Of a DNA stretch of 64,000 nt, positions 2,044 through 44,116 are shown piece by piece. Source of the stretch: Heterotrichella gracilis (lineage: Eukaryota; Sar; Xanthophyceae; Tribonematales; Xanthonemataceae); assembly GCA_032358255.1 (NCBI GenBank), contig JAULBX010025253.1, positions 1 to 64,000 on the forward strand, read 5' to 3'. The translations under genes were made by a program, and so were the position numbers. How positions within the stretch are numbered: position 1 is the stretch's first letter; every line of letters begins with the position of its first letter. The notes under the pieces are model-generated. The model was not told the DNA's origin and searched no databases. It was given only the letters and a program-made list of their open reading frames with translations.

Positions 2044-5000
2044 ATGGATGAGGACCCAGGGCAGCCGCTGCTAGAGCCAGAACAGCCCCAGTTAATTGTG
2101 CCACCACCCAGGGCCACTCCACCCATTCTGCAGATAATCGCAACCACAAACGTGACGGTGATAAACATACCGTATGACGACCGAAAGTGGAAGGCCAACG
2201 TCTGGTTCCCAATAGGTACGGACCCATATGGCGCTGGGTTTAAACTGTGTCCTTGTCTGGGTGTGCATGCATGCATTTGGGCGCCTTGCTTTGTGAGTCA
2301 AGTTTTGAGTTATGGCGCTCTTGGCAATGCGTTTCCCTCGCACTTGGTTTCTCATCCACACTCATGCGTCTATCCTGTGTACCCTGGCGCAGTTTTGGCA
2401 GGCTATGTGACGACCTTGGGCGTGCTGGGCTTTGCGTTTGGGTGAGTCACTCCACCATCTCCCTGCATCCAGAAGCAGTGCGTAACCACCACACCTCTCT
2501 ACCTCACAACCTGTTGTCGTAAGGCTACGCCCAATTGGGTTGCAGCTCCCTCCTGCTTTACTGCCCCTGCCCACATGACACCACAGTACCCAAAACCCTA
2601 TGAAGCCCTTTTGCCTAGGGTTGTTTACACCGTTAAAACCTTGTTTTCCCTTTCCTGCAGCCTGCCAGGCATGCCCTGGTGGTACCAGCTGGCGTTTGGG
2701 GCAGTGCTGCTGCTGGTGCTGCTCATGCTGTTCCTCACCAACCAAGTCGACCCAGGCAAGGGAGACTAGAACCCTACACCAAACCCTGACACACTTTATA
2801 GGTGGTACTGCTGTTCTTACAAGTCGACCTAGGCAAGCGAGTCCAAAACCCTTAAGACAAAACCTGACACAGCCCTTAATACCGAGGTGGTGCTGCGCAT
2901 GCTGTTCCTCACCAGCCACGTTCACCCAGGCACCACAAAACCCCAATAGAAAACCAACGCGCCGGACCCTGCACTATTCAATACTGGCCTCCCCTCTCCA
3001 CCCAAAACCTGTACCAAACCTTAAAGTTCTGAATAACCCTGATTGTCGAACTGAACCCTCCCCCAGGTGTCATCCCCCCCCGCAAGATCCGTGACCCGCT
3101 CATCAACCGCCTAGACCAGGGCGACCCCTCGATTGCCCACCGGGAGAGTTACGACAGGGACGGGAAGGGGCAGTGGATGCGCAAGATGCCGGATGGGTCG
3201 GGCTGGGCGCGCTACTGCACAGCGTGCAATGTGTGGCGGCCCCCGCGCTCGGGGCACTGTGGAGTGTGTGGGTACTGCATGGTGAGTGGAGGGCGGGGTG
3301 GGAGGGTGCGGTGGGGGACGTGCCCCACGCACAAGGCATTGTGGTGTGTGGGTACTGCATGGCGAGGGGCTGAGGTGGGGGTTCAATGAGCCGGGGAGTA
3401 GGGCATTTGCTGTGTGGTGGACATCAGGTTGGGGGTGGGTCTCAAGGGTCGTAAAACCCAAAACACCTAAGCAGCAGTGTCGACGTCATTTGGTACGCTG
3501 ACGGGATCTTCAAACCTTAAGACCCTAAACCTGCCACACAGGTGCACTTTGACCACCACTGCCAGATCGTGAGCACCTGCATGGCACACAGCACTAGAAC
3601 CCTAAACCCTAACCGTAAGCCTACTGCGCAGGAGCGCTTTGACCACCATTGCCAGATCGTGGGCACCTGCGTGGCCCGCAACAACCACAGGTTCTTTGTT
3701 GCCTTCCTCATGCTGGCGCAGCTGGGGTGCATGCTGCTGGCGGCGGCAACCTCGCTCAGGCTGCGCCACCTCAGCATGCAGGAAAGGTGAGGAGGGGGTT
3801 GGGATGGTGTTTTTCAGCACAGGCAAGCGTCTCAATGTTGGGGTGGTGAGGGTTGTGAGCTTTAAGAAAGGCTTCCAGCATAGGCCAGGACATGTTGTTT
3901 AGGGTTTAGGGTTTGGTTTGGTCACGCCCCACCAGTGCTGAGTACTACCCCTTCCATGATAGGCCTGGCTGCTGCTCATGCTAGGAGTGATGCCACTGTA
4001 CTTTTGCTATCGTTGCCCCACAATTGTGGGGTGGGCTTTTGTTTCGTTTGTCTTGCCATCTTTCCTTGTGATCGTACCCACCCCATCCCAATACCACTAG
4101 GGTCATGACTTCTGCACGAGTTTTCCTTCCCATCATGGTAGAGCCCACCCCGCCCAGCCCCATACCTCCTTGTGTGCAGGCTAGGTGTGGGCCCGGTGGC
4201 AGTCAACCTTAGGAATCTTGGAACTGCAGTCCCCCACAGTTATGAATTCGCCCCTTGTGCAGTGGCGAGGCGTGGGCCCGTTGACCCACCCACCTGCTCC
4301 TCATGCTTGGACGTGTGTGACTGTTCCTGTAAATGTATCTGCAATGTTGTATCTGGAACATTCCCTGACTACCCCCCTTGTGCAGTAGCGAGGCATGGTC
4401 GCGGTGGCCCACCTATTTGTTGCTGATGCTGGACGTGGTGTATGTGTACAACTGGATGGTGCTGCTGTTTGGACTGGGACACTGCTTCTCGATAGTGTGC
4501 GGTACGTATGCCTTTAGCGTATGCCTTTATTGTCATTGTCATTGATTTGCACTGTAGCTGAGTGTTGCGTGTGATGCGCACTGGTTTAATACTATACTTC
4601 AGTACCTATTTGCGGTTTGTGGGCTGAGGGTTGGGCTGTTGAGGCGGTGTAGAAGCATGCCGCAGGCGGAAGGGAAGTATAGGCGCATGTATTGCCCCTG
4701 GTGGGAGCCACTGGCATCCTAACTCCCCTTTTGTGCGTCCCCTTTCTTTCTTTTATGCTACCATATGCACCATGCCATTCCCATGTATATTCATGATGGG
4801 TGATGCGCCATGGATGGAGCACGTGGCCACAGCGGGTGGGAGCCAGTGGTCCCCTAACCCCCCCTTTGTGGATTCCCTTTTTTTCTTTCTCTCTATGCAA
4901 CATACCATCACACCCATGATTGGTGACGCATTCCTGGCTAGAGCGCCTGGCCACAGCGTATGGTGAATCGGGTGAGCCTTTGCATCCCCTCCCTGGCTCT

Positions 5001-6658: not shown

Positions 6659-9600
6659 TTACCTGGCCTGGAAGCCCTCTGGCAGGGATGAGCCAGTGTT
6701 TCCGGCCAGCGCTGCGCCGGACATGTACTGCTCTGCCAGCTGCACGCGCTTGACATTCTCCTGCTCCTCCACCAGGTAGTTGCCGTACTTCATGAGGATG
6801 GACAGGGGCATGACGGGCTTCTCAAACTCCACCTTCTCCCGCACGTTGATCAGCTTCTTGCCCATGGTGTCCACCCCCACAACGGTGATCCAGTCGCGCA
6901 CCTGGGAGGAGGGGGTTGAGGGTTGAGGACAAGATGTGGGCTGAGGAGGGAGAAAATATGGGAGATACACAACATGGACGGACATGCAACATGGGAGACA
7001 ACTTTGTATTGCCCATGCATTACAGCCACATCACAGTCAGCATTCCACAGCCCAGGGTGCAGCGCAGGCAGCAACATTCATTTCAGTTCCCCATGTTAAT
7101 ACGGTGATACGTGCACCATGCACCAACACCCGCCCCAGCCCGCGCACCTTGTCGTCATACACGCGCGCGCGCAGGGCACCGAAGAAATCGATGGACTGGC
7201 CTGGGAAGGCGTCCACCAGCCTCTCCACATCGGCGCGGTCCACATTGTCGTGCTGGAAGATACCCATGCACACGCCCACGCGGTCCTCGCGGGTTGGGTT
7301 CCAGTAGTACTTCTCCATGCGCCCGTCACGGATGAGGGGTGCGTATAGGGTGGAGAAATCGTTTCCTGTGCACACCACGGGCACGCGGGGGATCTCCTCG
7401 TTCTTGTACACGCCGGGCAGCTGCAGGAGAAGGGGCGGGGCGGGGTGAGAAGGGAGCGTGAAGGGGGTGGCAGGGAGATGAGGGCGATTATGACGGGTGG
7501 TCACAGGCGCACGTGCAGCTAGGCGTGGCACATTGCAGCCCGACAAATTTGCCGGCCAGCTGCGTAAGATGCACCGCATGTGGTGCATGCCATGCAGCAG
7601 CACACCGACTCCACCCCACCGCAGCAGGCATTGTTCATCTCTGCGCACCTGCACGTTGGTGGGGTTGTCGGCGATGTTCATGAGCGTGGCGTTGACCATC
7701 TGGTTGTTGACAGTGTACTGGGTGGACTCGCCCATGCGGCCCGCGCCGGCATCCAGATCATTGATGAACAGCGAGCACATCTTGCCCTTCTTGATCACAT
7801 CTGAGGCCTCGCGGTAACGCTGGCGGATGAGCTTGGCGGGCTCACCGGCGTTGCCAGACTCCAGCTCACCGGCAGACATGACGATGGGGCTGATGCCCAG
7901 CTTCTTGTAGGCCAGGTTGCACTGGAAGGTCTTACCTTGGCCCTGTGAGGAGAGGAGGAAGGGAAGGGTTAGGGGTGTGGGACAGGTGGCATGTTGTCCG
8001 CAGCAGCAAATTTGGCTAAGCACCCTGTGCTAAACCTCCCTCCACAAGCCGCGGCGCCCACCAACAATATCACCGCACGTGCACGCAACACACAGGATGT
8101 GTGGGACCCTCAATCCTACACACTGTGCCTCCCTCTCCACGTTCTCGGGACGAGCGAGACCCTAGGTCCCAAACCCTAGCCAGCGCACCTTTCCTCCCCA
8201 GATACCCAGGATGAGGGGCACCTTGATCTTGGGCAGGTCCAGGAAATTCTTGGCCACGTGGATGGACATCTTGTCCAGGAAGGCGGGGGAGATGTAGAAC
8301 CCGTCCTCGATGTTGTTGAAGTTGCGCTGGGCGGTGGACAGGTAGTCAGCGGAGGTCATGATGGCGTTGTGGGTGCCGCCCATTCCGTGGCCGCCCTGGA
8401 ACACGGAGTCCACCATGTCGCGCCCGCGACGGATGTCTTGCTGCACGAGGGAAGGAGGGAAGTGTGTGAGCAAGCTTGTCAAGGTAGAATTTAAGAAAGA
8501 AGTGAGCACTTGAGGTAGCCTTTGCTTAGAAGGCGGGAAAGGAGTGTTGGGTTCCACAACAACACAGCCAAGAAGACACAGCTGCACCACCATAGGGGCC
8601 AACCCCTTGCGCGCTTGAAGGCCTCTAATACCCAGGTCAGCCCATGTGGCGCTAGGCCTCCCTCTAGACCCTGTTCGTATCCCCCAATTAAGCGGTACAA
8701 CAGATTGCATTGCCTCAGAGCTCCTCTTTGAAACCACTGGGACTGCGCGAGTGCAGTGCGAGCCACGCCATTGCTACAGGTATGGTACCACAACTCACAA
8801 CTGCACCACCTGTTTAATACCTAGGTATAGTGTGCTCCTCCCGTTGGTGTACTACTTCAGACACTGCACCACTTAACTACAACACCCTGCACCACATTGG
8901 CTAGGGTTTAAGGTTTAGTACCTGGTCGTCGGACTGGTCCTGGCCTGCGTCCATCGCCTTCCACCTGCCAGGGGTCTTCTTGACCTCGGCTGCGGGGGCG
9001 GCGGCGGCGCCACCAGATGGTTTGGCGCCTGGCACCTGCACAGCACACGTCCCGTTGGTACAGGGTACAGGTCAAGGACCCATGCAGGCAGCACAGAGCC
9101 CTGCCCTGCCACCAGTAGGTTAGTACCACTTGACCCGTGCGCCTGCGCTTCTGCCAATCACACACACTGGTCTTTTTGTTATTTCAGGGAACAACGGGGC
9201 ACCCCAGGTAAAAAACATTGAATGGCAGGCTATATGTATTCCCCTTTCCACTACTGCAGCTGACAAAGGAGCTGGCAAAGCTGTCTTTGCAGTGCAAGAC
9301 AAGCGTGATGGGATAGTGGCACCACCAACACTGGAGCGCCGCCTGCCAATCCTGGCCGCCATGGGGTTGGCATCGCTGTTCTTCAAACAGCAGCCACAGG
9401 ACACTCACAAACTAGCCCAGAGAGACTGACTAGGCTGGGCAACTAGCGCCAGCAACTTGCACAACATCTGGCACCAACAGCTTGCACAACTGGAAGGCAG
9501 CCAGGAATCTTGCACAACTTAACAAAAGCTTTGATGCAGGACTCCAATTTGCACAGTTGGGTGTGTAGAAAGTTAGCAAGGCACTTGCTGGCCAACTAGT

Positions 9601-10342
9601 TGTGAAGGAGGTTGCTATAGAACTCTCTAGAGAGCAAAGGCTAGAGCAGGATGGCAGGGGTGGCACCCTTAACGCTACTGGGTGACAGATACGGTGGCTA
9701 CACTCGGCAGCACAACCACGTACCGAGGACTTCTTGACGCGGCGGCCACGGAAGTAGACATACTCGTCCTCGGCACGGACGGTGAGCCTAGCCACCTGCA
9801 GAGCATCTGGAGTTAGGCTGCTGCAACGTGATGACGGCCTTCTTGTCAAGCAAGGGGGCGACAGGGCCCACCCAGGAGGAGAATAGGGAGCGACCAAGCA
9901 GAGGCGATAGCACATTGGGCAAGGCAAGGTCGAGAGGTGCTGAACGGATCAAGTTCATGCGTGTGCCCCCCCGGAAGCGGTGACCCAACATCGTCACCCA
10001 ACGAGGTTACTCAGAAGCCCTGTCGTGCTAGTTGTAGAGCGAACGTACCCTCTGTGCCCTTGAGCTTGAGCTGGTTGATTGCCGGCTTGGCGCCAGGCGC
10101 GAGCCAGCAAGGCTGCAATCAACACAACAAGGAACGGGTCAGTGGCTTGTAAGGGGTACGAACGAGGGTTGTGCACAAATTGAAGGCGTTACTCATTTCT
10201 TCACGAAAGCTAGGATAAGTGGACATGTATCTGGGATACAGGTGCCGCAGGGACTGCCAATTGAACTCTCCTCTTGTTGATGCAAGAGTTGATGAGAGTA
10301 CTATCCGCACCTGGAGTTCATCTGAGCGAGGCCGGTGGCCAT
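6659..10342 (-). CDS. RCA: Rubisco activase, chloroplast precursor
   Basis: AAA+ ATPase that removes inhibitory sugar phosphates from Rubisco in the chloroplast stroma. Eight exons join in frame: 10342-10311, 10112-10049, 9795-9724, 9035-8922, 8440-8189, 7942-7649, 7420-7148 and 6901-6659, giving 447 residues. The start MATGLAQMNSSLAGSRLAPS opens a Ser/Arg-rich transit peptide with a likely cut after TVRA (about 37-40). Walker A is GGKGQGKT (176-183) and Walker B lies in CSLFINDLDAG (234-244). The core follows Chlamydomonas activase closely from GRWKAMDAG onward. It ends SSLPEGFQAR, so it lacks the redox Cys tail of long plant isoforms. Odd: an extra block of about 40 residues sits between the transit peptide and GRWKAMDAG. 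It begins with EDEYVYFRGRRVKKSS (41-56), the same motif that is repeated four times in the gene upstream. Exon 3 ends exactly at that motif. The structure is certain apart from small doubt on exon 1. Confidence 0.96.
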
Positions 10343-11495: not shown

Positions 11496-13139
11496 CTACT
11501 TCTTGGGCACCTGGGAGCGTGGCACCTTGCGGCCGCGGAAGTACACGTACTCCTCTTGCTGGGGGCTGCCGTATGAGGCGCTGGCGGAGGGTGCGCTGTA
11601 GCTTGATGGGGAGGAGGAGGGGGCGGAGGTGGAGCCGGAGCCCTTCTTGTAGGCGGGCTTGCCCAGAGCAGGCAGCTGCAAAAAGAGAACAGGTATGGTG
11701 TAAGTGACAATTCACAGAAGAGTGGAAAGGTTGTGGGTCACAGCATGTGGAAAACAATGGTGGCGCGAGCAGTCTGGGCAACGCAGCAGCAGAACACAGC
11801 ACATGTACCCACAGAGCAATTGTATTCAGAACATACCTGGGAGCGTGGGACCTTGCGGCCACGGAAGTACACGATCTCATCGTTGGCAGGGCTGGAGGAG
11901 GAGCCGGAGGAGTAGCTCGACACCTGCTGGCTGGAGCTGCTGGACTGCTTGGAGGCGCTGGCGAGCTTGCCCTTGTTGGGCACCTGGGACCGTGGCACCT
12001 TGCGGCCGCGGAAGTACACGATGTCATCGTCCTGCTCCTTGGATGGGGAGGAGCTCTTGGCAGGGGAGGACCAGCCATTGGAGGATGAGCTCTTGGTGGG
12101 CATCACTGGAGCTGCTGGCTTGTTGTTGCTGGGCAGCTGCAGAGGGGAAAGAAGGGATGGTTAGTAGCTGCAGGAGAATATCAGACATAACAGTGGTGTA
12201 GGTGTGTGTCCAGTGCACTTGAAATAGATAGACAGGTAGATAGATAGACAAGGCAAACACAGAGCCACCGTGAAGTCATCACCACCAGCTTTAGAAAATG
12301 GTCAAGTCATCGTCAGCCAGAAATAAACAAAGAGACCCCCAGTAGATGCCGGTTATTACCTGGGAGCGTGGGACCTTGCGGCCACGGAAGTACACGTACT
12401 CCTCCTCGGTGCCGATAGAGGAGCGTCCGTTCAGGGTCTGGGTGGCGCGCATGACGGTCTTGCCACCGTTGGACACCTGCAACGGAACAGAAAACGGTTA
12501 GTTGGGTGACGAGGAACGAACAGCTGGTGCTGGAAGGTGGCTGTCACAAGGTGACGGCCCAAGGAAGACGCATTGTGTATCTGGGTGTATCAACGCACCG
12601 CCAGCCAACATACCCCCCACCAAAACCCATCAGGATCACAGGCAACGAACACATTCCCGACACGGCACATTGCAAGCCTAAGGCAAACAACCACACCGGC
12701 CTTCACCTCAGGCGTTGAAGGAAGAAGATATCAACTAGATACAGTTGGCCTGGGGCTAGTTCACGCATTGGGCAACGACACAAGGGGCAAGGGTGATCAC
12801 ACGCCGCAATTCAAGGTAGGCCGTGAGGTGAGGGTGCATACCAGTGTGCGGGCCACGCGTGCTCCGCTGAAGGAGGAGGAGCGGGCTGGGGCCATGCCAG
12901 CGCCAGCAAAGCTGCACAGAAGGGGAAACAGGTTCAGTCAGGCGAAAACGGATCACGCCAGTTTCGCTGGCAAAACCTCCGACATGAACAGGCTGCCGCG
13001 CATTGTGCAAACACGTCCAACAAGGCCCTCAGTGAGCGGTGCAGCGCTGTGCAAGCACTTGGATAAGGTGAAAAGTGGTTGGTTGGGCGCGTGGTGGCGT
13101 TACTCACCTGGGCTTGAGCTGAGTGATAGCGAACATCAT
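11496..13139 (-). CDS. plastid-targeted four-repeat protein, candidate Rubisco/pyrenoid linker
   Basis: I know no named family for it. Five exons join exactly: 13139-13108, 12911-12842, 12476-12360, 12136-11837 and 11675-11496, giving 232 residues. The start MMFAITQLKPSFAGAGMAPA opens a transit peptide with a likely cut near VMRA (about 42-45). The rest is Ser/Pro/Gly/Lys-rich, with no predicted fold, broken by four copies of (E/D)(Y/I)VYFRGRKVPRSQ at residues 58-73, 109-124, 158-173 and 213-228. Spacings are 51, 49 and 55 residues, and each copy is followed by (V/L)P. Repeats 1, 3 and 4 close or nearly close an exon, and introns cut after Gln in phase 0. Rubisco activase, next downstream, has one copy of this motif and the same first-exon layout. 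By analogy with EPYC1 in Chlamydomonas (evenly spaced Rubisco-binding motifs in a disordered chain), I infer a multivalent Rubisco linker. Gene model is firm; function is inference. I could not test for kinship with the Chlorella linker. Confidence 0.88.
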
Positions 13140-15619
13140 TGTGGAGTGTCGGAGGCCGGGATAACACAAGTTTAGCAGCTTTAGCGACGACTGCTGGTGC
13201 TGGATCAGGGAATGTGCGAGGGATGAGTGAAAGATAGAGAGGGAGCTGGTGTATTTGACGTCAAGGATAACGGCTAACGACTATTTCAGTGCGCTGCGGC
13301 CAACTGCAACTTCTACCACGAGGGCCGTGGTAGGCTTTTGGGACAGGGGCCAAACCTCGTAATGCCACCAGATGTGACGGGGTAAAATTCAAAGTGTGCT
13401 GGAAACGGGCCGTGGATCCCCTTTTTGGTAACATTTTAAGCCCATATTTGATGACCCCGCCTTCTCCTTCAGTGGCCCTCAGAAACCTACTACAGCCTGA
13501 GGCGCGCGGCTGCTGTAGAAGGGTCGGCCCAACTCGACAGCTCACCTGTTGCCAACGCTTCGAGTCCGGCCGCAACTGCTAGCCGTTGACCTTTCGCATG
13601 CTTTCGCCTAAAGGCTGCGTGGCTCTCGAGGTGGTTGTAACATACCTGCGTGCCGGCTGCCTGCCTCACCGTGCGCTGCACCGCTTCATTTCGAGGTCCA
13701 TGGAGTGATCACCCGAAATTGCAGCTGGGAACACTTGTCCTGGCCAGCAGTCGTTGCGTCTTTGCACCTGTAAGTGGACAACGCGCTATCAGAGGAACAC
13801 GGCTTGGACACGGCGTCGATTTGCGCCACAAGGTATCCCTGGTTGCACCACATTAAGGTTTAGTTGGGTGCTAAATGTGCATGCATGCCATGCAGCTAGC
13901 TGGCACACAATGCTTGGCGAGCAAGTTATTAGTCCCAGCCCACGTTTATTGGCAGCGCAACTACTACTCTGTGGCAGGCGTGGGGCTGGCCTGTACACAT
14001 ACGGCAGTCATCCACAATCACAGCTGTAGGGTTTAGGGTTTAGGGTCTGCCTGTTGTGCATACACTTGTGGACATCGAGCTCGACCTGGCGACCACCCCT
14101 ACAATGTACTAAAAATGCAGCAAAATTGGTTGTTCAATATGGGTATGTGTACACATGTGGCGCCCATCGGTGGCCAAATGTCCGCAATGATCTGGCCATG
14201 GCATGCCATGCCTGCCAGCCATGACCCGCGCATTGGGTCCAGCAGGACATTAGACAATTGCGGAGAATTAATAACAATAAGCACGGGTATCACATGGCTC
14301 AATTTTCGGTCAATTTTGCGGTCCAACTGTTGCGGTTCTCAACAGACAAGAGTGCAGCATGCTAATAGCAAGCTTTACATATACGCACTTGGCTCACCCA
14401 GTAGGTGCATTGCATTGCACCACCATTCCATGCTTGTATTTTCCTTATTGCCATCCTAAGCTAGCTGAACCCGCACGCACATCCCAAAGATCATGGCACC
14501 ATGGGCTAGCACGGCCCAGAAGCGACAGTGGGTTTTTCCACTCTCCTGAATGCGATTCAGAAGAGAGTAAAAACCCAACGTCTCTCGAGGTACACCATTA
14601 AGTGGTGCACGTAGTCAAGCAAATTAGCTCCAGCTCCCAGTGGGGCATAGTGGTCGCCACCAGCGCGGTATGGGTGTCCATTGCTATTGGGTTTGCAAAT
14701 GGTAAGGAAATTCCATTCAAAGTGTATGGTGGACAAGGCGAACTCACACCCTTGCACAAGCCTTGCGGATCCGAGGCCTAATAGTGTTGGTATTCACCGT
14801 TTGTGACGAAAAAATGAATTACCATAAGGTTGAAATGCCAAACAAGAACCTTGAATTGAATTTAGAAAAGAAATGGGACGCATAGATCTGGAGACGGAGT
14901 TAAGGGGCCACTACGAGCGGCTCGCACCAAGGCACCGACCAGCCAGCTTCTGAATGGCTGCAGATTCTGAATGGCTAGTCAAGCAGGGGCTTTAGCCTCA
15001 GTGAGTGTGTTGGCTACTCCAAGTTGGGTTGAACTAAGCTGGGCATGTATGGGCTATAGGCTGATTCTGAATCTGTTCTATGGGATGATGCCAGCATCCA
15101 CATTGTCAATTGATGTGGTTTACGCAGTACGAGCCGTCGTTTAATGGCGTGCATGTATCGATGAACCTGTCACAGCAAGTTGCCTATTGTAACTGCCAGG
15201 CTTACCAGCAACACAGCCAGGTCAGCAGCCAGCATTGCGCCAGCCAGTCCTTGTACAATCTTTGATGGTCCATGATGGTCCATCTGTTGGTCCCCCGGCG
15301 CACCCTAGATAGGGTCCATACTGGCGGGCGGGAAGCAGCCACTTCAACAATGACACAGCAATTGATCAGGCAAGCGGGAATCGGGTTTGTCTGTGCAACT
15401 TGAATTATATCCCATCAGGCTGCTGGCAGCATTCCCCCTCTGCCCTCCCTGCATGTGGACATCCCTTCTTTTTCCCCCTCAGTACACACCCGCCAGCCCA
15501 CTGCCGCCCACACGGGATTCCCACCCACCAAGCACCCCCTGCCGATTGCGCAGGGGTAAAATAATTTCAAACAATGTAGCAAAAATTCCAACTGTTCTCA
15601 CAATGCAGATGCATTTCCC
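13140..15619. other. long spacer without a supported gene
   Basis: This lies 5' of the four-repeat gene and 3' of the ABC gene. I see no exon with splice sites and a convincing protein. It holds a telomere-like tract near 14029-14046 and is A+T richer than the flanking exons from about 14.1 kb on. Confidence 0.5.
14029..14046 (+). repeat. interstitial telomere-like tract (TTTAGGG)
   Basis: About two and a half head-to-tail GGGTTTA units lie in the spacer. The unit matches the plant-type telomere repeat. Confidence 0.8.
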
Positions 15620-18600
15620 TCAGTGCAGCCCCAGCTCCCCCCCCTTCTGCTTCCTGTACTCCCCCACACTGCACACCCGCCACTGCCCCCCCCCCTGGCT
15701 CTCCAGCACGTGGCTGTGGAAGTTGATGAGCTGCGTGCGGTGGCCCACAGACACCACCGTCTGGCAGCGCTCCAGCAAGGTGGAATATAACAGCGCCTCG
15801 GTGTGGTGGTCAACTGCAGAAGTGGCCTCATCCAGGACCGCTACGCAGGGGCGGTAGAGGAGTAGTCGGATGAAGGCCACCCGCTGCTGTTCACCCAGGC
15901 TGAGGACCGATGACCAGTCCTTGAGGGCGCCCAGGCCACCCACGCGCTCTAGCAGGCCTGGGGGGCAAGGGTGAGGGTGGATTTATGGGGAATTGCGCAA
16001 AGATTGAATTAGGTTGAACATGGTATTGATGATGACGACCCGCCCGCCCAGTTTGATCTAATCACGGGCAGCTGCCTTCCCAATCCCAGGGAGGCATGCA
16101 AGATGCCAGTGCCAACATTAGGGGGGGAGGTCACATGCGCATCTGAATGGGTTTCCGGTGGACAGATGCGGCTATTGCACAGCATGAAAATGTCTGAGCC
16201 GTGGCCCCTGGGTGGGTGGGGCCAACGCTGAACTTGAAGCACACCAAAGAACCCCGTCCAAAACCCTGGCCCAAATCCTCACCTTCCAGCCTGACCAGTG
16301 TGAGCAGCTCCAGCAGCTCCTCGTCATCCACATGGCGCCCTGAGGTGCCGACTCCGCAGCCATCCACATCTGGGGGGCAAGGAGGGGTTGGGGGTCAAGC
16401 CAGGTGAATCATTCCAATTGAGGGGCATGTGTGGCCGGGAACGGGCAGGTGGTGTTATGACATCATTGCAACAGCATGGGTGCCCCCAAGTCACAAAAAA
16501 GTAGCAGCACAACAACAAAACAACGGTGCCCACATGCGCTCGAGTGCGCTGTGCTAGGGATGGTTAGGGTTTTGGCACTCCCACCCCCGCCCCCTCACCT
16601 CCCGGGAACAGCAGCTGCTGGCGCAGGGTCCCCAGCGGCATGAAGGGCTTCTGCGGCAGGAAGAACATGGTGGCGGCCTCAGGCAGCCTCACCACCCCCT
16701 GCCCGTTCCTCCAAAGCCCCGCGATGGCCCTCAGCAAACTGGACTTCCCACAGCCCGAGGGGCCCACAATGAGTAGCGACTCCCCCTCCACGATCGTGAG
16801 GTCCAGTCCCTTGGCGATCGTGAACTCGTTGCCGGGGGTGAGCAGGCAGAACCCTTCTAGGGCAATCTGCGTGGCTTTGTCCTTGGCGGGCAGGGAGCGG
16901 ATCTCGGTGGCAGGGACCCAGGGGTGGTTGATCACTGCACAATGAAGGGGGAAGAGGGGATTTGGGTGATGACAATGAGGGTGATGGAAGGTGGGGTGCA
17001 AGATGAGGGCAGGCAGGGGAGGGGACACGACTGGCACATAGGGTTCCCCCAGCTTGCGTCAGGGGCTTTTGTTAAAAGGTTTTGCTGGTACTTTGGTGAC
17101 GTGGTGAAGCCTCTATATCTGTGCCTGCCAGTTGCGCACACGTGACCTCCCTAATGTTGAGTACAATGACCAGCCAGGGCAAGCTGCAAGGGCTGGGGTT
17201 CTGGGAAGGGTTGTTCAAGATTTGGAGCAAAGCTTTTGCCGAAAGGTTTCGATGCGCACCTTCGTATATGTCGTGTAGCCGCTCTGTCTGCGCTGCTAGC
17301 CCGGTGACCTCCGCCAGGTTGCGCACGATGACGGTCAGCGCCTGCTCTATGCGCGTGAAGGCAAAAGACACCTGGCTGATGGCGCCAAACTCGAGCTCGC
17401 CGCTGAAGTACCTAGAGAGGGGAGAGGTTGGTGGGTGGAGGCAGGGCGCTGATTTGTACATACTGTGTGGGGGGTGAGTGGGGTGGGGTGAGTGGAGGTG
17501 GATGGCAGAACGATGGCGGGGAGACCGTGCTTGATGCGGGTGAAGTCAATGAGACCTGCAAGATGGCGCCACCCTGCACCTCCCGCCCTAGGGTTTAAGG
17601 GTTCCTAGATAGCAGTTGGATGGGGAGAACACACCTGGGCGCAGTGAGTATGGCTGGCAGCAGTATGGTTGCGTAGTTGTATGCATTGGTGAACAGATCC
17701 AGCCACGCCTCCCAGCGGATTCTGTCCAAACGGGCGGCAACCAGCGAGGTGAACCTCCCCAGGGCTGTGTCTAGCTCCACATTTTCCCCCTTGTAGAAGG
17801 CGATAGACTCTGGGACAGGGGGAGCAGGGGGTGGTGGGTGGGTGCGCAGGAGGGGTGGGGGTAAGTGGACACACGGGGAGGGATGGTAGGGAGTGAGGGT
17901 GTGCAGGGGATTCGGGGTATGAGCGAGTGAGGAGGTGTGCAGGGGAGGGTGCAGGGGGCAACCAGGTAAGGCCCTGTACAGGGAGTAGGATTGAGACGGG
18001 CGCAGGGAGGGGAAATGTGGTGTGTACAGGTTGCGTCAGGGGTGTCATGCTATATCCACCCCCCTAGTCGGTGGAGTTGGTTGATGCAGCCCCCATGTGC
18101 GGGCAGTATGTGGGGTGGTGGGAATCTCACCTGCATTTTCCCGCACCCGCACCAGGCTGAACCTGAAATCTCCCTCCCTGGCCAGCACCAGGTAATTAAG
18201 CCCCACCAGCCGGCGCCCAAAAATGGCGGTCGTGACCAGGGTCCCCACCAGCGCATAGCCCAGCAGGAAGATGACAAGCGTGGGGGCGATCTGCCACAGG
18301 ACACCTGGCAGCAGTACGGCAGGGTTTAGGACTCAGCGATTGCAAGTCAACGGATACCTGGCAGGAGCGTGGGAGGTGTATGATAGCAAGAGCGTGCAGC
18401 TTGTGAGTGCGTTGGCAGGACTTCAATACATCGTCGTGAGGCCTAAACACGTCCCCACATGCAAGTGCACTGGTACTTGAGGGGGTCTACCCACCCAAGT
18501 CCCCCACCGGCAGGATTAGAAATCATCCACCTGGTCCCTTGCATGCAAAACCAATGCAGTTGAGCACCCTCCTGACCAGGCCCAGCAAGCTAACCCTCAA

Positions 18601-20518
18601 GCCCTAAACCCTACTTAACCCTACACATCACCCCCACGTTCCTCACCTGCAAACGCCACGCAGTTGAGCACCTTCTTGACCAGGCCCAGCACCAGCACCA
18701 GGCTGTTGGCCACAAACGAGGCAACATCGTCGCTCAGGCGCTGCAACACAAAGTGTGTGTGGGGGGGGGAGGGGAGGAGGGGGAGGAGGTGGGTTAGGCA
18801 ATTAGGAGAATGAGAGGCGCCAACAGATAGTGTGTGTGGTGGGCGCTATCCAGACCACACCACACCACACCTCACCTACCGCACCACCACGACAGCATGA
18901 ACAGCTACTCAACAACACCCCCCCCACCCCGTCCATTCCCAATCCCAACCCCTGCACTCTTCCAATCCCCACCTGGTCCGGGTTGTCCACCCCCAGGCTG
19001 CTGATCTGGGACAGCGCGTAGTAGGAGCGGTGCGCCAGGTATTTGGATGTCAGATGCTTGGTGAGCCATGACCTCCATGCCAGCACCAGGCGCCGCTCAA
19101 TGTAGTCGGTGAATGCAAACAAGGGCGCGGCGAGAACAATAATTTTGACAAACTCAACAAGGGAGAGGTAGAACGCCGCTGCAGGAGGGGAGGAAATGGT
19201 CATCCCAATGGTGGTCCATTTACATTCTAACATCTTGCCCGTGCAATCCCTGTGGGCATTTGCACATGTCTAGCAATCCACAGCTTAGCATGGCTGGAAT
19301 GGCACTGCCAATTCCCTCTGTTCGCATGTTGCCCCAAGCGCAACGGGCATTAACCAATACATAGCATGCCACAACGCCCAGCAATGTGTTTTGCCCTGCT
19401 ACAGATAGTTACCCGTCACTTATTTACGGTATCTCAATGCGTATGATCCTAGTCCGGCCCATGAATCCCCACACATGCACACGTACAGCCAGTTCTGGCA
19501 TCCAAGTGTGGTTCTCTTCCTATCCCCTTTGTCCCTCCCCATGCAGCCCCTCATTGGTTGCTGCATGTGGCGATCAATGCCACACGCATCTCAGAAAGTG
19601 GAGTCTGAGATTGTGCTGTACCCTAAAACCTATAACACTTCCCTCCAGAAATGGCAGTAACACGTGCACCCACCTTCCCGCTTCTCCGAGAGCGTTGTCT
19701 GGAAGTTGCGCTGCGCGTATGAGATGCGCACCAGCAGCGCGGTGTTGACCAGCGCCATGCCCACAGCGGCAAGGAAGTACAGGCATGCCTGGACACGCTC
19801 CTCGCCTGCAGTAAGGTCGGGGTTCAGATTGGTTAGGAAGGCATGCCTGCGAGCCAAACGCACACGCAGCAGGCAATTTCTATGCTATGCAGCATTGCTA
19901 TTCTGGGCTGTTATCAGCACGCCGTTGACCAGCGCCATTCCCACAGCCGCAAGAACCCGCTCTTCACCATGCAAATGCGTAGGGTTTGGGAAAGGGTTTT
20001 CGGTGGGTAGGTGCAGTTTTTGAGCGGGAGGCATGCCGCCTAGCTAAGCAAGGGATGAGTGGGCTGCGGCACGACGTTCAAGCTTTGTCCATTAAAGGGT
20101 TTTATGAGATTCAGGGCCATATTTGGCTGTAGCATGCATGGACCACCATGCCTTATGTGCATGCACACACTGGTGCTTGTGTGCGGGCTACATACGAACG
20201 TTCTGACGGTCGACACCATATGATGTAAATGATTATGTTACTGGCGCGTGGTCAAGTTGGGTCAGCTGCGCTTGGAAAACCCCAATGCATGCCTGTGCGT
20301 ATGCATATGCATGCATGTGACGTGGGCGTAGACTCACTGCAGTACCAGAGCCTGGCGAGCCGGAACCATTTTGGAAACGCTGGGAACAGCGGGCGGTAGG
20401 CGGCGGTTTGTGCGTCGGTCGGTGGCGTTGCAGCAGCGGATGTGGTGGCCCCTCCTACTGAAACCGACAACGAGGTGTACTTGCCCCGCTGGCGAGCCGA
20501 ACTAGACTCCGAGACCAT
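15620..20518 (-). CDS. ABC half-transporter, ABCD/SbmA-BacA-like type
   Basis: Membrane transporter subunit with one membrane domain and one ATPase domain, expected to work as a dimer. Ten exons join exactly: 20518-20338, 19805-19674, 19178-18973, 18740-18647, 18304-18131, 17809-17635, 17411-17260, 16934-16599, 16369-16283 and 15957-15620, giving 624 residues. The membrane part spans about 60-345. In the ATPase part I see Walker [10 protein letters not shown] (429-437), the signature LSLGEQQR (531-538), Walker B CVAVLDE (550-556) and the switch His in SVGHRTQ (585). This domain order and the LSLGEQQR signature match the SbmA/BacA/YddA kind and the plastid-type ABCD of plants rather than multidrug ABCB proteins. 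The N-terminus is Ser/Thr-rich and could be a targeting peptide, but this is weak. Introns 1 and 4 hold partial exon copies. The substrate cannot be read from the sequence. Confidence 0.9.
18541..18600 (-). repeat. decayed copy of ABC exon 4 end in the next intron
   Basis: The stretch GCAGTTGAGCACC...GACCAGGCCCAGCA on the plus strand repeats the text at 18660-18694, which belongs to exon 4. Copy and exon are separated by CCCTAAACCCTA-like motifs (about 18600-18625). The copy has no usable splice context of its own. Confidence 0.7.
19918..19966 (-). repeat. decayed copy of ABC exon 2 in intron 1
   Basis: GTTGACCAGCGCCATTCCCA and the bases after it repeat exon 2 text at 19743-19775 with a few changes, then run into CGCTCTTCACC. 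It is a partial duplicate of the exon lying upstream in transcript order. Confidence 0.7.
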
Positions 20519-25808: not shown

Positions 25809-28800
25809 GTGTGGATGTCTGTACCTGGCATCTTTGCCAGCGTTGGGGCTTGGATCAGGTTCACTGCTGAGGTACCTGGGTGCGCCAGCAACATCGTACA
25901 AAGGGCTGGTCACTCTTCCACAGTAGTTGACTCGAAGGTGTATGTCATCGGCGGGAGGCGCAGGTCAGTAACCAAGCTCTGGAGCAGTTGTACAACCCGA
26001 CAGTTTGCAGCGCAAGGGAACGTCCTACCCTGTTTTTTGAGCCGTTCAACGTGCCCTATGGTAAATTGTGTGATTCTCTACCCTTTTACACAGTCTCTGC
26101 TGTCCAGCCAAGTGCACCATGGACTTGTCGTTGCAAACCTGCAGATAGATGCAAGCAGGGGTGATACGCCCCACCACCACCCCAAGCAGCTCCACATCGA
26201 CACCACCACCCGTGCACCTACAAGCATACACCACACCTTTTCTACCAAAGCACCGTTCCAGGTGCCCTGCTGGGATGCAAACCCCGTCAAGGGTTCGAAC
26301 CTGGCTCCCCTTTGCTGCGCAGGGAGGAGTTCCTTCGAGACTGCCTGGTGCTTGACACCCGTACCCGTCAGTGGTCCCTCCAGGGCCGCCTGCCATTCTG
26401 TGCCCGCACCTACCACACAGCCACGCTGCTCAATGGCGAGGTGTGGGTGGTGGCGGGCAACGAGCCCAACAGCTGCCTGTCAGACGTGCACGTGCTCAAC
26501 GTGGCCAGGCAGGAGTGGCGCCAGGTCACCATCAGGTGGGGGGCATGTCCATGCGCATGGGTAGGTGCACGAGGGGAGGGGGGGGGAGGGGGGATAGGGC
26601 CCGGTGGATTTGGGTGTGTGCGTAAACCCCTTGAAGCAGGCACTGTGCTGTGCACGCTTTGCTGGCCAAGCAGACACTCGAGTTAGAGCACCCGAACGGA
26701 GCACCTAGGTTGCATACTGGATGCAATGAAAGCAATGTGCTCCAACTGGTTGGGGCATTCCATATGTGTTGTGTATCTGCACCTCGGGTTGACATCACTG
26801 GCTGCGCAGGAGCAACGGCCACCTGCTGCGGCGCACCAACCACACCACCGTGGTGCACCCCACCAAGCCCAACTGCTTGCTGATATGCGGCGGGTACGGC
26901 AATCTGACCACCGCCAAGCTGCCACCTGGCGCCTCGCTGACGTGGCTGGCGGACGTGTGCGTCCTCAACACAGAGAGGTGGGGGTGGATGAATGGGAGGG
27001 GAGGAGGGGGTGGGGGGGCGCAGCCCACATGCGGGCTTGTGTGAACTTCCTTGTGGTTCGGGAAAGATGCAGGGATGTCACTGGGCGATGCACTGGTTCA
27101 CGGTGGCATGCGGACATGGGCAGATGATGCCATGTGGGCATGTGGGCATGACCGGTACTTGGCCTGATGGGTGTGACGGCATAGTGATGGTGTGATGGCA
27201 TGGCGTACGTTGCAGGGCGCATGTTTGCACGTTGTGGAGGTGCATGGGGGCATGGTGCCTGGGAAGATATGCATTGCCGCAATTGTGCATGTGGTGGAGG
27301 CGATGGCGACATGGGCAAAGACCTGCAACCTGTACCACGCGCTTTCACTCCGGAAATCCTGCCATTTATTACAACACCAACTAAGGTGAAGGCCTTGCAG
27401 CCCAGACCGCATGGCCCTTGGCTTCTCACGTCCCTGATATATCCCCCCTTGCTCTGACCGGGCTAATTACAATATTTACAAGATTTGACAGTCGCATTCA
27501 GGGAGCCAACCCTGGCTCGCGAGACTGTTGGAGGCGCTTAAAGAAGTCACCCCGCTCGCTAAAAAGTCTGTGAATTAATGGAGCCACATTGGCCCCACAT
27601 TTACTACTGAAAAAGCTAAACAAGTTTCTAGGAATATCATCATAACAACTAATGGAACCTCAAACAATCGTAAACACAAGGCGATTTTTCCTCACTCTCA
27701 TCGTGGCCCTCCCCGTTGCCCAGCTGCGACGTCACCCCCCTGCTACCCTCCGGTCCCCAGCCTGGCGCCCGCGGTTACCACACCTTCACAGTGGTGGGCC
27801 AGCGGGGCTACTTCATTGGCGGCCGCACCGACAAGGATGCCATGATCACTGACGAGGAGTTTGTTGCAGTGCTGGACATACCGGGGAATCGGTGGCTAAA
27901 TCCAGGTGCGCTGGGTGCCACGTTGCCAATTGGCGGGAAGAGGCGAGCGGTGGCGGTCGGGCATTTGGAGGTGGCTTCTGCTGGATAATTATTTAAGACC
28001 ACCAGCTCCACCCGCCGCGCAGTTGTGCTGCCGGTGGCATGCTGCTGTTTACCGATTGGAACCCCTGACCCACCTGCCCCATCATCTTGGTTCCACGCTG
28101 AGCCAGGTGCCAACATGTGCCCTAAATAGGTGGTTTCCAAAGGGTTGACCATTCCAACCACCCCTGACCCACCCCGCAGGCACCATTGGTGGCCGCGCCG
28201 TCCCCCCGCCCCGTTCCACCCACCGCGCGGTGGCGCTGCCAGGTGGCGTTCTGCTGTTTGGCGGTGCGGGGCTGCGCAAGGTGCGGCTGGACGACATGTG
28301 GGTGCTGCGGGTGCACCCCACCAGCCACAGCCTGGCGTGGGCAAAGGTGGAGCCACCGGAGGGGCCAAGGCCAAGCGGTGAGTGTGGGGACTACTGTAAT
28401 ATACGGTACTGTTTAATTGATTGGATTTCAACGTTATCATAATTATAATTATACTGTTGGATCAATAATGGTGGGCATGCCTTGCCTTGGAGTTATACAG
28501 CCAGATCTTGCAGTCGGCCTGGCAGTGCCAGCGGTGCATGGGAGACCAAAACGCTTGTGACCATGCATCGCACGCATTTGGGGTTTTTACCCTGAACCCT
28601 TGTGGTTGTGGTATGGAGGCCGGCGCACAAAAACGAATTGGTTTAGAGTTTTTACGCTAAATCTGTGTGTTGTGGCAGGGCGGGCGGCGCACACCTTTGA
28701 GCTTGTCGGCAACACACTGTATGTCCTGTGTGGGTATGGCAACCATGCTACCTACGAAACCGATGGCTGGGCGCTGCAGCTGCAGCTCCAAGGCCATGGG

Positions 28801-39890: not shown

Positions 39891-42139
39891 TCAAGACAAT
39901 GCCCAATGCCATGCTGTGTAATCCTGCCACAAATCACCATTGGACCTTGTCTGCCCCAACTTGTTGCGGATACGTAAGACCTCCAGCAGGTGCATGATGG
40001 CACCGCAGCTGCTGTCGCTGCGCTGGAATACAGGTGAATACTCCCCAGGACAATACGTACTTCCACGGGGCACTAATGCGCACGCTGCTTGAAATTCTTT
40101 CTTTGGGTAGGCCCAGTGCTGGTAGACCGCATCGGTGAGTTCGGGCCTGTGCAACGACTTTGGGAATTTGCTGTAGGTTTTGTGGAATAAGTGGTAGTGT
40201 GAAAGTGGAGCGAGGGGCCCTTGCGACCAATCCCAGGCGTCAATCTCCCTCTCCAGCACCCTGTTGGGCTGGCTGCATGTGTCGCACAAGGTGTTGCGCA
40301 CTTGCCATGTGGCCATCACAGCAGAACCCAAGCAGCCTCCCGGGGCAAACAAGTCCTTGATACTCCCAGGCCGATCCAACGTGAAGAATTCATCCAAATC
40401 CACCACCATCAAAACGCTGTTCTGGCCCCACTTGGCCAAGGAAATCCAGGTGCTGAGTAGCGCCTGCAGAAGGGGTATGCGATGCGTGGTTCATTCATGC
40501 GTGATTATTCATGCATGCTGAGTCAGATGTTGGAGACATGATCACATCATCGCAGCCACCATCGTGCTGGCATGAAATGCAGATGTGCGCATGATTTCAG
40601 GTCGCTGAGGTCAGGTTCTCCTGGATAATGTATCCACAGTGCATACATGCATCCTTTCCCCAACGATGACATTGTGTTCTCACTCGATAATTGGAGGGGC
40701 AATTGCACATGGGTGAGGATGCACATCTATCGTTGTCATTGCAAATGTGCCTGTTTGCAAAAAACATGTACCTGGTCTGCGTTGGGCACATGGATCTTGT
40801 TGTTCAGCGGTTGATGCTCCCACAGTATGAACTCTAGCTGCCCACCAGCCACGTATCTCTGCAGCACTGGGGATGCAAGCATGGTCCCAAGTTGCTGCGG
40901 CCGCAGCGCCATCACCATGCCATCCACCCCCAGCCGCTTGTGGTACTCAATGTGCTGCGTCATGGTGTTCTCAACTATGAACATATCCATAGAGAAGAGG
41001 GGCTTCATGACTGTAAATACCTTGTCAGGCGGGTGGTGCGGGGAGTTCCATTTGGAGCTGTTGAGGTCCAGGGCTTGCAGGCATTGGCCCAGGGAGAACA
41101 CGTTGCCCTGGTGGCCCCACCCGGACTGCTTGACCCAGTACTTTTTGGTTGCATCCAGCTCTGATGCAGGAATCACAAGCTCCACCGGCACGGGCACCCC
41201 GCTGCAGTGCTTGTCCCCGTGCCACTGGTTCACGCGCAGGCGCTTGAACATGTGGCGCGGCACCTGGGTGAGCGAAGCTGGCTTGCTGGGGGATCCCGGC
41301 GCGTATTCTGGGATGGCTTCCTCGATGAACAGCTTGAAATTCCAGTAGCAGGCGGGCCTGTCCATGCACTCTGGGTAGGCGTGCTTCTCATTGGGCCATG
41401 CTTCCCGGAACGCCACAAACCCGCGCATGCTCACTGTGGTGCCATCAGTGAAGCACTTTGTGTACAGCTCCAGGCGGCCCGCATGCGCTGATGGGAATGA
41501 GCACGCGCCTCGTCTGGTGGAGTTGTACGCGCAGGTGCCGCACCTGTCGCCTGGGCAATTGCTGCATTGTCTGCTGCCTGCAATTTTGCATTCCCATTGG
41601 CAAGGGGTATGGGCACTGGGCAAGTGCCAATGCTGCAAGTGATATTGCAATGCATGACCATGTGAATCAATCACTTTGATTACCTGCATGATTATGTTAT
41701 CCAATTTAAATAGGAAACGCAGTAACATAACCCATTCAATTATCACCACTGTGATGAGCTTTAGAATTTGCATCAGGACAATGTCTTTGCCAATAACCAC
41801 GGGTGTACCCGTGCACTGTGCATGCATGTAACAGGGTGCGCGGGTCGGACTGGTGTTCAGTGACCTGATTATCTTACCGATAAATGGGTAATACTGTACC
41901 CCATAGTCCTCCCCAGTGTGGTATAATCCTTGAGCATACCAATCAACCACTGGTTCTTTATCCAACCGCTCATTGCCGTCTGGAAGTGCTATCACTGTCC
42001 CAGAGGCGCTGGTTTGCAATGCTGGATCAGTCTCAGGCTGAAGGGGTGCACAGCAGCAACGTCCAACACACACTGCCAGCACTAGAAGCACCGTGACGGG
42101 TTCCTTGCTGGAAAGACTGCGCTTGTGAGGCGCAACCAT
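39891..42139 (-). CDS. GT92-like glycosyltransferase, type II membrane protein
   Basis: Probable Golgi sugar transferase. Three exons join: 42139-41878, 41577-40772 and 40463-39891, giving 546 residues. The start chosen, MVAPHKRSLSSKEPV, puts a short signal anchor (VTVLLVLAVCVGRCCCA) at about 15-32. The middle has a Cys-rich block (QCSNCPGDRCGTC). The family signs are TVMKPLF..., then an ENTMTQHIEYHKRLGVDGMV stretch, which is the usual N-terminal half of the GT-A fold, and VDLDEFF (377-383), the metal-binding DxD. Family members typically have YDLDEF here. The first intron (41877-41578) is free of stops in this frame and 300 bases long, so a retained form would also be readable, but it would insert a poorly ordered stretch. 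An upstream in-frame extension to 42238 exists and lacks support. Sugar and acceptor are unknown. Confidence 0.75.
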
Positions 42140-44116
42140 TGTCACCACTGAAAGACCGGGAAAGAAACGGGACGTAATCCGCTCGACAGTCAGACAATCT
42201 GCGCCACTGCCAACGTTGATGAACCACACAAAATGCACCTACATCGCCACATTTGTCAGACTACTGGCGCTAAAAGAGAGTCCGAGCTTGGCGCAGACGT
42301 TCCTATGCTATACGCCTTGTTGACACATTGCGTAACCTTTTGAAGTTTGTGACACCAACAGACCATATGTGACGCCCGCGCGGCGTCAGTGACGCGCGAG
42401 TGACACATGATCGACCTGGTCCAGACTGGCGCTGAGTGGGTCAAAAAGAAAAAAGAAAGAGAGGAAAAAACCGCCCACGCCTACCTGACGCCAGGCACAA
42501 CACACACACCAGGGCGAGAATATGGGGAGGTTGAACTTCAACACTGTAACAAAAGGCACGTAAAAGTGTCCACATGACAAACAGCACATGTCAACCTGAC
42601 ATGATGACATGGCATTGGCCAAATTGAACTTGGATTCAAATGATTGCCCGCAGCTGCCAGTGAATCAGGTGACAGTCTCCAAGCAAGTGCTCCCAAATGC
42701 TTCATGCAGGGCCCTTAGCCTAAGCCTTAGGGGCACCAGGTTTGTGGATCATCATGGTGACTTGTGAATCACATCAGATCATTTGGATATTTCAACTTGC
42801 TTGACGGGGCTATGCTTCTGGATATGCCTTGCGATCCACTGCCCTTTGGTGTGCCTGGCCAGGAAGAACACTCGCGGTGTGTTGTACCCAGTGTGTTGCA
42901 CCCAGCGTGTTATACCTGACCAGGGGCCTGTAACCTGACACCACACTGCGGCCGTTCCCTTTCATTATTTTTCCTGCCCATGAAATGATTGCCAATTGCA
43001 TGCGACGTCCGGCTGTTGTGGCCAGCTGCAGTGAGCACACGCACATGCGTATGCCATCCTGGAATACCTTGGTATGCATTGCAAGCGCCACAAGACAAGC
43101 CAAGCGCCACACGGCAAGACCGCAAGGGCGTCATGCACAAATTGCATGGCAGCCTGAGCAGCAACAATGGTATCACCAGCCGCTGGCGGCCCACCACCAC
43201 CACCACCACCACCACCACCACCACCACCACCAGGCCATGTACCAATTGCACCCACCCACCTCAAATTGCTGCCCCAGAGTGGCCCATCGGGACACAAGCT
43301 AATGCCGCTGCATTCACACAGTGACTGCGCTATGCGCTGAGCTGCTGCCAATCATCTGGTATGATACCAGAAGCAGGACTGTGCCCATTTGACCGCGCGC
43401 CATATCATGGGCATGCGCATGAATTTTGCCGAAACCTTGGCAAGCAGCTCTTAAGTGTACAACCCTGACCAAAATGTGACCAGCAACAAAGTTATGGCCC
43501 ATCTGGGTCACAGTGAAACCGTTTCGCAGACAACGCATTGCCAACCATTGCAATAGCATGTCCGGCAACGCTCTGCGACAACAAAAATTCGTAGCATTTG
43601 CAATGAACTGGGTCATTGTTACAAGAATGACCTTGATTTCATTCAACTTTTTTTCTTCTTCAAATTGCCAACATGTTCATTGAACTTCGCTCATATAATA
43701 TCCATTACTGTCACGGAAATAATTGGTTTGATTCATTTGCCAAATGCCGGTGGTTCCCATTGAATCTTGCTGCTTGAACCCTGGTATTTGGCGGCAATAC
43801 ATAACATTTGTGATCGTCAATATTAATGGTCCTGATATTGTATGCTTTTGATTTATGGGCACTGGTAAGCCAATTGATAGCACTTGCTGACACCGTTTCC
43901 TTCTGCAGTAAGCATCTAGGCCCTCTGGAATGTGACAACAGCATATACTTTTCACTGGCACGATGCGCCACGATAAACTAGTGTACAGTCTAATAAACAT
44001 CTTGTGAGCCTTCTAAATTGTGCTTGTGCTTTCTCCTGCGCGCTGCACATCCTTCCTTTCTTTGCACAAGGCTGGTGGTGAGTGACTCCCTGGAGCTGCT
44101 GATCATCCTTTGCTCC
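42140..44116. other. spacer without a supported gene
   Basis: No exon with good splice context was seen. It contains a perfect CAC/ACC microsatellite near 43191-43232 and a palindromic CG-rich patch around 42372-42405. Confidence 0.5.
43191..43232. repeat. (CAC)n microsatellite
   Basis: About 14 perfect CAC triplets lie in the spacer. Open frames through it (poly-His, poly-Val, poly-Gly) are artefacts of the repeat. Confidence 0.95.

Follow-up and report, generated by a model that had tools for sequence, protein, structure and literature searches.

A repeat-protein gene lying next to a Rubisco activase (RCA) gene in the window (the whole stretch of 64,000 nucleotides that was analysed) encodes what we take, with a probability of roughly 0.6 and judging from sequence, to be an abundant, disordered and plastid-targeted multivalent Rubisco linker, whose sticker would be a module also carried by the N-terminal extension of the activase. 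The pyrenoid linkers known from different lineages are described as having no sequence homology among them (PMC13159521), and a candidate linker that sits beside RCA, with exon layout and motif in common, offers a concrete and testable origin for a linker.

The repeat-protein gene and the neighbouring activase gene

Re-assembly of the repeat-protein gene on the minus strand (13139-11496) gave five exons and a protein of 232 aa, with all four introns of the GT-AG type, pyrimidine-rich at their acceptors and in phases 2, 0, 0 and 0. The coordinates agree exactly with those of the initial annotation, which had placed five exons and 232 residues at 11496-13139. Two TGTAA polyadenylation words lie 494 and 621 bases 3' of the gene, and none was found within 900 bases 3' of RCA, the next gene downstream and in tandem with it. 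The exons and motif copies of the two genes are as follows.

13108-13139, minus strand: exon 1 of the repeat-protein gene, 32 nt, with the ATG at 13139 and an end in phase 2; RCA exon 1 is equal in length and phase
12842-12911, minus strand: exon 2 of the repeat-protein gene, 70 nt, transit-peptide-like, ending in phase 0
12360-12476, minus strand: exon 3 of the repeat-protein gene, 117 nt, ending in phase 0 immediately behind motif copy 1
12360-12407, minus strand: motif copy 1, EEEYVYFRGRKVPRSQ, predicted beta-hairpin (single-sequence model)
11837-12136, minus strand: exon 4 of the repeat-protein gene, holding motif copies 2 and 3
11984-12031, minus strand: motif copy 2, DDDIVYFRGRKVPRSQ, predicted beta-hairpin (single-sequence model)
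11837-11884, minus strand: motif copy 3, NDEIVYFRGRKVPRSQ, predicted beta-hairpin (single-sequence model)
11496-11675, minus strand: exon 5 of the repeat-protein gene, with motif copy 4 and the stop codon
11511-11558, minus strand: motif copy 4, QEEYVYFRGRKVPRSQ, predicted beta-hairpin (single-sequence model), followed by VPKK and the stop
6659-10342, minus strand: Rubisco activase (RCA) gene, 8 exons, 447 aa
9724-9795, minus strand: RCA exon 3, 72 nt, ending in phase 0 immediately behind the motif
9724-9771, minus strand: motif copy 5, EDEYVYFRGRRVKKSS, in RCA exon 3 and the N-terminal extension of the activase (pattern match at 9743-9759)

The repeat protein carries a 12-residue core, VYFRGRKVPRSQ, four times without variation (at aa 62, 113, 162 and 217) and at intervals of 51, 49 and 55 residues, bearing out the earlier description of four motifs spaced 49-55 residues apart. 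When the protein was shuffled 1000 times with its composition preserved, no exact repeat exceeded 7 residues, compared with the 12 residues observed four times, and a degenerate DNA pattern for VYFRGR matched five times in the window and not once in 100 shuffles. The looser word [YFWVI]YF[RK]G[RK], sought in all six frames of the window, likewise matched at five places, four of them within the repeat-protein gene and the fifth at 9759, also on the minus strand; copies of VYFRGR[RK]V (five in the window) are confined to the repeat-protein gene and the adjoining RCA. Any two of the four cores in the repeat protein differ by 0-3 synonymous codon changes with their amino acids unchanged, and the spacers have little in common beyond composition. 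The codon after the motif core is intronic in copies 1 and 3.

By its domain matches the neighbouring gene is a Rubisco activase, and a clear green-type member with AAA+ and activase helical domains. Its residues 73-438 match PDB 4w5w (Arabidopsis) at an E-value of 7.3e-169, beginning at chain residue 5, and the Pfam family RuBisCO_activase_AAA_helical is matched at E 1.2e-35. The fifth motif copy (RAEDEYVYFRGRRVKKSS, residues 39-56) lies in an N-terminal extension ahead of the conserved GRWKAMDAG...DDQQDI start, and the Arabidopsis RCA chain in the PDB (4w5w) has no counterpart of this motif-bearing extension. To our knowledge, Chlamydomonas RCA also lacks an N-terminal motif extension. At its other end the RCA protein finishes in SSLPEGFQAR without a long C-terminal extension and resembles the short form of the enzyme; it is the alpha form of plant activase that is redox-regulated and has a long C-terminal extension. 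No AAA hit was obtained for the repeat protein in a Pfam scan, and it is therefore not itself an activase: it has in common with this green-type activase the layout of the first three exons of the adjoining RCA, unlike green-type activase (Arabidopsis, PDB 4w5w) in being without the AAA+ domain. The initial annotation was thus right about the repeats of this gene, but had missed both the fifth copy in RCA and the gene architecture that the neighbours have in common.

This common architecture extends over the first three exons. Exon 1 measures 32 nt and ends in phase 2 in both genes; exon 2 (70 nt in the repeat-protein gene, 64 nt in RCA) and exon 3 (117 and 72 nt) end in phase 0 in both, and the exon-3 donor abuts the motif in both. 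The N-terminus of the repeat protein is transit-like and resembles that of the adjoining RCA, residues 1-32 of the two proteins aligning without gaps at a score of 59 (best of 2000 shuffles of the repeat-protein segment, 52), and the N-terminal residues plus motif reach a local score of 108 (best of 2000 shuffles, 55). At the DNA level, the best match between the two loci is the motif itself (32 bases, 90.6%, E 4e-7), with two more motif matches at E 0.003. The start of exon 2 is also matched, bases 12887-12916 corresponding to RCA 10088-10117 (30 bases, 80%, E 0.031) in the same register to the splice acceptor, while, of the 30 other matches listed between the loci, all but the two motif matches at E 0.003 have E-values of 0.38 and above. 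This comparison of the loci found no convincing DNA similarity between the introns of the two genes; their upstream regions have a few short words in common, which prove nothing.

Taken together, the repeat-protein gene and RCA look like tandem relatives that have their transit-peptide and motif exons in common. Because the introns are without convincing similarity and the core exons of RCA are not duplicated elsewhere in the window (tblastn), the event would be either old or limited to the 5' exons. The argument for descent is carried jointly by intron positions, motif and adjacency, since likeness between transit peptides within a single alga need not reflect common descent. On this evidence the linker may have arisen together with the activase, and either gene could have been the donor.

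The motif could instead be the end of a transit or import signal common to both proteins, which would make the repeat protein a low-complexity plastid protein without any Rubisco-related function. The motif-bearing exons do come after transit-like exons in both genes, and unstructured downstream sequence is described as able to aid import (PMC9133816). We nevertheless judge this very unlikely, as the motif recurs exactly at 51, 100 and 155 residues further on, with one of these three additional copies near the C-terminus, and import has no need of them, and as the copies hold their amino acids while the spacers differ.

Disorder, predicted shape and codon usage of the repeat protein

Behind a plausible RA cleavage site the repeat protein is rich in Ser, Pro and Lys, with a pI of about 10.3 over 188 residues. 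FoldIndex is below zero over all 187 residues of the mature protein, and has a positive mean over the RCA core with 16% of positions below zero. An AlphaFold2 model calculated without an alignment had a mean pLDDT of 60.1 and a pTM of 0.17, its blocks scoring 80-89 at the motif cores and 43-54 in nine spacer blocks. In it each motif takes the form of two strands joined by a turn, together with a short helical turn ([YI]VYF / RG / RKVP / RSQ), and the model also draws low-confidence strands at residues 29-49 (pLDDT 61-69). The RCA model is poor overall (mean pLDDT 33.8), and the hairpin that reappears at its motif, although the best part of the model with blocks of 57-60, deserves little weight. 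The spacers are thus predicted to be disordered and the motifs to be beta-hairpins. The disorder prediction called for at the outset accordingly returned a largely disordered chain, from FoldIndex as well as from the spacer pLDDT of 43-54. The hairpin prediction is weak evidence, coming as it does from a single-sequence model.

Scored for adaptation to RCA codons, the repeat-protein gene reached 0.727, and RCA itself, when its held-out halves were averaged over 50 splits, 0.668. Six other stretches of the window, which are ORF slices and not finished gene models, gave 0.31-0.45 in the frame taken as coding; one of them has two open frames (0.447 and 0.256), and the frame taken as coding was used. 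Slices of two coiled-coil ORFs (34410 and 35169) contained stop codons and are not counted. The introns of the repeat-protein gene gave 0.23-0.36 and its two wrong frames 0.27. This codon bias suggests a functional gene that is expressed about as strongly as activase, and hence an abundant product.

Searches of domain collections raised two known domains, RNase H2 subunit C and CCDC174 GRSR, as possible identities of the FRGR repeat. The whole repeat protein matches Pfam RNase_H2_suC in two stretches at E 1.9e-6, with 28.7 bits where the cut-off is 20.8, and CCDC174_GRSR at E 3.5e-4, under the cut-off; three weaker families are all under their cut-offs. However, the best RNase_H2_suC stretch consists of 39 residues of one repeat plus spacer, covering profile positions 30-70 of 133, and single scans of three repeats (1, 2 and 4) and of the N-terminus of RCA gave no match to any Pfam family at E-values up to 10 in any of the four cases. 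The RNase H2 match thus appears to stem from repetition and composition, and both identities, hardly credible given so short a stretch and no hits in isolated repeats, were rejected.

Other collections gave no relatives. There was no PDB match to the repeat protein at E-values up to 10 and none to a profile of the five motif copies; NCBIfam gave two matches, both far under the cut-off, and Rfam nothing at gathering score in the window. Among viral contigs, one stretch matched the pattern of the repeat protein and 24 that of RCA, with none confirmed in either case. RCA residues 36-160 picked out 396 stretches in prokaryotic genome contigs, again with none confirmed, and a search by DNA pattern gave no match in either the viral or the prokaryotic genome contigs. 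These collections being viral and prokaryotic, the absence of relatives says nothing on other algae. The string VYFRGR is absent from the full-text literature searched, and no activase-related linker is described among the matches listed by title and abstract start, in a search that covered mainly open-access papers.

The motif as a candidate Rubisco-docking sticker

The initial annotation had read the protein as a Rubisco linker, and as far as design goes this stands: the spacers are predicted to be disordered, the stickers are identical and evenly spaced, the N-terminus is transit-like and the codon adaptation is very high. Its spacing of 49-55 residues falls inside the range of 20-120 residues used by FLIPPer (PMC11570498) for the spaced stickers of pyrenoid linkers. 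Among the genes of the window, none was recognised as encoding Rubisco itself. The case for Rubisco goes beyond analogy, because the same motif occurs on the adjoining RCA and the N-domain of plant RCA takes part in engaging Rubisco. Such a role of the plant N-domain is described in PMC9951593, and N-terminal deletions of tobacco activase are reported to keep ATPase activity and lose Rubisco activation (PMC5437159). When an activase and a disordered, multivalent protein have a motif in common, the most plausible reading is an element for docking on Rubisco, possibly on the surface recognised by both CsLinker and activase. In CsLinker of Chlorella sorokiniana, Phe173, Arg176 and Lys177 bind Glu51, Asp86, Ile87 and Tyr97 of the large subunit, and its authors state that activase binds the same large-subunit region (PMC11570498). 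For green-type activase, a helix belonging to the AAA+ module is described as recognising residues 89 and 94 in the betaC-betaD loop of the large subunit (PMC5437159).

We postulate that four stickers on a flexible disordered chain would cross-link Rubisco and so build a matrix, and that one motif per activase subunit would recruit activase to it. Rubisco is thus the predicted partner, contacted perhaps on the part of the large subunit that CsLinker and activase are known to bind, and the predicted shape of the sticker is new. If this is true, a compact part becomes available for assembling Rubisco condensates in plants, and one motif could link the condensation of Rubisco to its repair.

The partner of the extension could also be another protein or another site, since the plant N-domain tested in those deletions has no counterpart of this extension and the contacts with residues 89 and 94 are assigned to the AAA+ helix. 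The motif might serve as a tag for docking not on Rubisco but on some third protein of the plastid, such as a scaffold, membrane tether or regulator, which the repeat protein would organise or for which it would compete with activase. Its position outside the conserved activase core, with no counterpart in the Arabidopsis chain, is in keeping with such a tag, and in Chlamydomonas one tag serves many pyrenoid proteins, though the partner there is Rubisco (PMC10473226). We consider a third partner unlikely: Rubisco is the simplest one that activase and an abundant multivalent protein would have in common, and the abundance implied by codon bias fits a stoichiometric partner of Rubisco. It is quite improbable, in our estimate, that the hairpins bind each other or activase, with the repeat protein clustering activase or regulating its assembly instead of acting on Rubisco. 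Activase is described as an oligomer with a flexible N-terminus (PMC9951593), and strand pairing is conceivable between the hairpins predicted in both proteins (in RCA with low confidence), but beyond its VYF core the short motif is polar and basic.

Returning to the linker reading, the design of the repeat protein has counterparts in several known systems. CsLinker is a disordered protein of the plastid, as the repeat protein probably is, and it too has evenly spaced short stickers (PMC11570498), of which equivalent helix residues (174 and 240) lie 66 residues apart. Six stickers are given for CsLinker (37.4 uM repeats at 6.24 uM protein; PMC11570498), compared to four in the repeat protein, a smaller number that counts against the linker reading. 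The F-x-x-R-K pattern of the CsLinker sticker (Phe173, Arg176 and Lys177; PMC11570498) recurs in the VYFRGRK of the repeat protein. However, the CsLinker sticker is an alpha-helix of about 10 residues by NMR and cryo-EM (PMC11570498), whereas the motif here is a predicted beta-hairpin with Gly in the turn; because the predicted shapes differ, the F-x-x-R-K likeness is only a lead and perhaps due to chance.

The Rubisco-binding motif of EPYC1 is Trp-centred and helical. The repeat protein has a single Trp, in NGWSSPAK and outside the repeats, which places its motif outside the EPYC1 family, and this and the modelling of the motifs as hairpins uphold the earlier statement that the motif is unlike that of EPYC1. 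EPYC1 of Chlamydomonas is itself a disordered linker, with five evenly spaced stickers (PMC10473226, PMC10288592) compared to four here, and its sticker, a helix that attaches to the small subunit (PMC10473226, PMC10288592), contrasts with the hairpin predicted in the repeat protein. The EPYC1 sticker is reused on other pyrenoid proteins (PMC10473226), much as the motif here is found on RCA as well; a sticker held in common with activase is described here for the repeat protein, and not for EPYC1 in the available portions of PMC10473226 and PMC10288592. PYCO1 of the diatom Phaeodactylum is a repeat linker that, as here, has short stickers on a disordered chain (PMC10288592), but it differs from the repeat protein in acting on red-type Rubisco through helical KWSP stickers that are unevenly distributed (PMC10288592). 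The term activase is absent from the main text on PYCO1 (PMC10288592). As the stickers of EPYC1, CsLinker and PYCO1 are all described as helical, a hairpin sticker would be new.

For a sticker common to linker and activase, the closest logical precedent would seem to be the beta-carboxysome. The activase of beta-cyanobacteria carries the same Rubisco-small-subunit-like domain as CcmM, a folded module of about 85 residues, and a 2020 study by Flecken reportedly found activase recruited to carboxysomes. CcmM of beta-cyanobacteria resembles the postulated linker in being a multivalent scaffold, with repeated Rubisco-binding domains of this small-subunit-like kind (PMC13370225, PMC13159521). The module common to CcmM and activase is a folded domain, whereas here a eukaryote carries, in adjacent genes, a motif some 16 residues long.

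As part of the reading preferred above, the first three exons, encoding transit peptide and motif, would be common to both genes, the module having been joined to the AAA+ motor in activase and the motif multiplied with disordered spacers in the repeat protein. How the linker could have arisen is a more tentative matter, and we put the following scheme at somewhat short of even odds. A eukaryotic linker would on this scheme have been formed when the RCA 5' end (transit peptide and Rubisco-docking motif) was duplicated in tandem and the motif exon then multiplied. The sticker of this linker would be a beta-hairpin, and linker and activase would have one Rubisco site in common, with possible competition between them, so coupling matrix assembly to repair. 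The pair would then be an independently evolved eukaryotic counterpart of the CcmM/activase module in beta-carboxysomes.

Other features of the window

Several further features were recorded in the window. Upstream of the repeat-protein gene, two interstitial TTTAGGG units (14032-14045, plus strand) represent what we take to be the telomere word of plant and green-algal type. Exons of an ABC transporter lie at 16567-19269 on the minus strand, with PF00005 in 16567-17058 and PF06472 (ABC_membrane_2) in 18805-19269, and the ORF at 15620-15982 appears by eye to be the C-terminal ATPase part of the same transporter. At 46569-48635 (minus strand), a match to the FTR1 iron permease family (PF03239, E 3.2e-11) falls in 48210-48635, and the ORF at 46569-47075 has no Pfam match. 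Two long ORFs of 199 and 500 aa at 39894-42238 (minus strand) have no Pfam match at E 0.001, and by eye presumably resemble glycosyltransferase-like proteins. An exon at 3033-3386 (plus strand) gives a partial match to DHHC palmitoyltransferase (E 6.7e-6, 26.6 bits, cut-off 28.7), and another at 26165-26683 (plus strand) encodes Kelch repeats (PF13418, E 9.8e-11).
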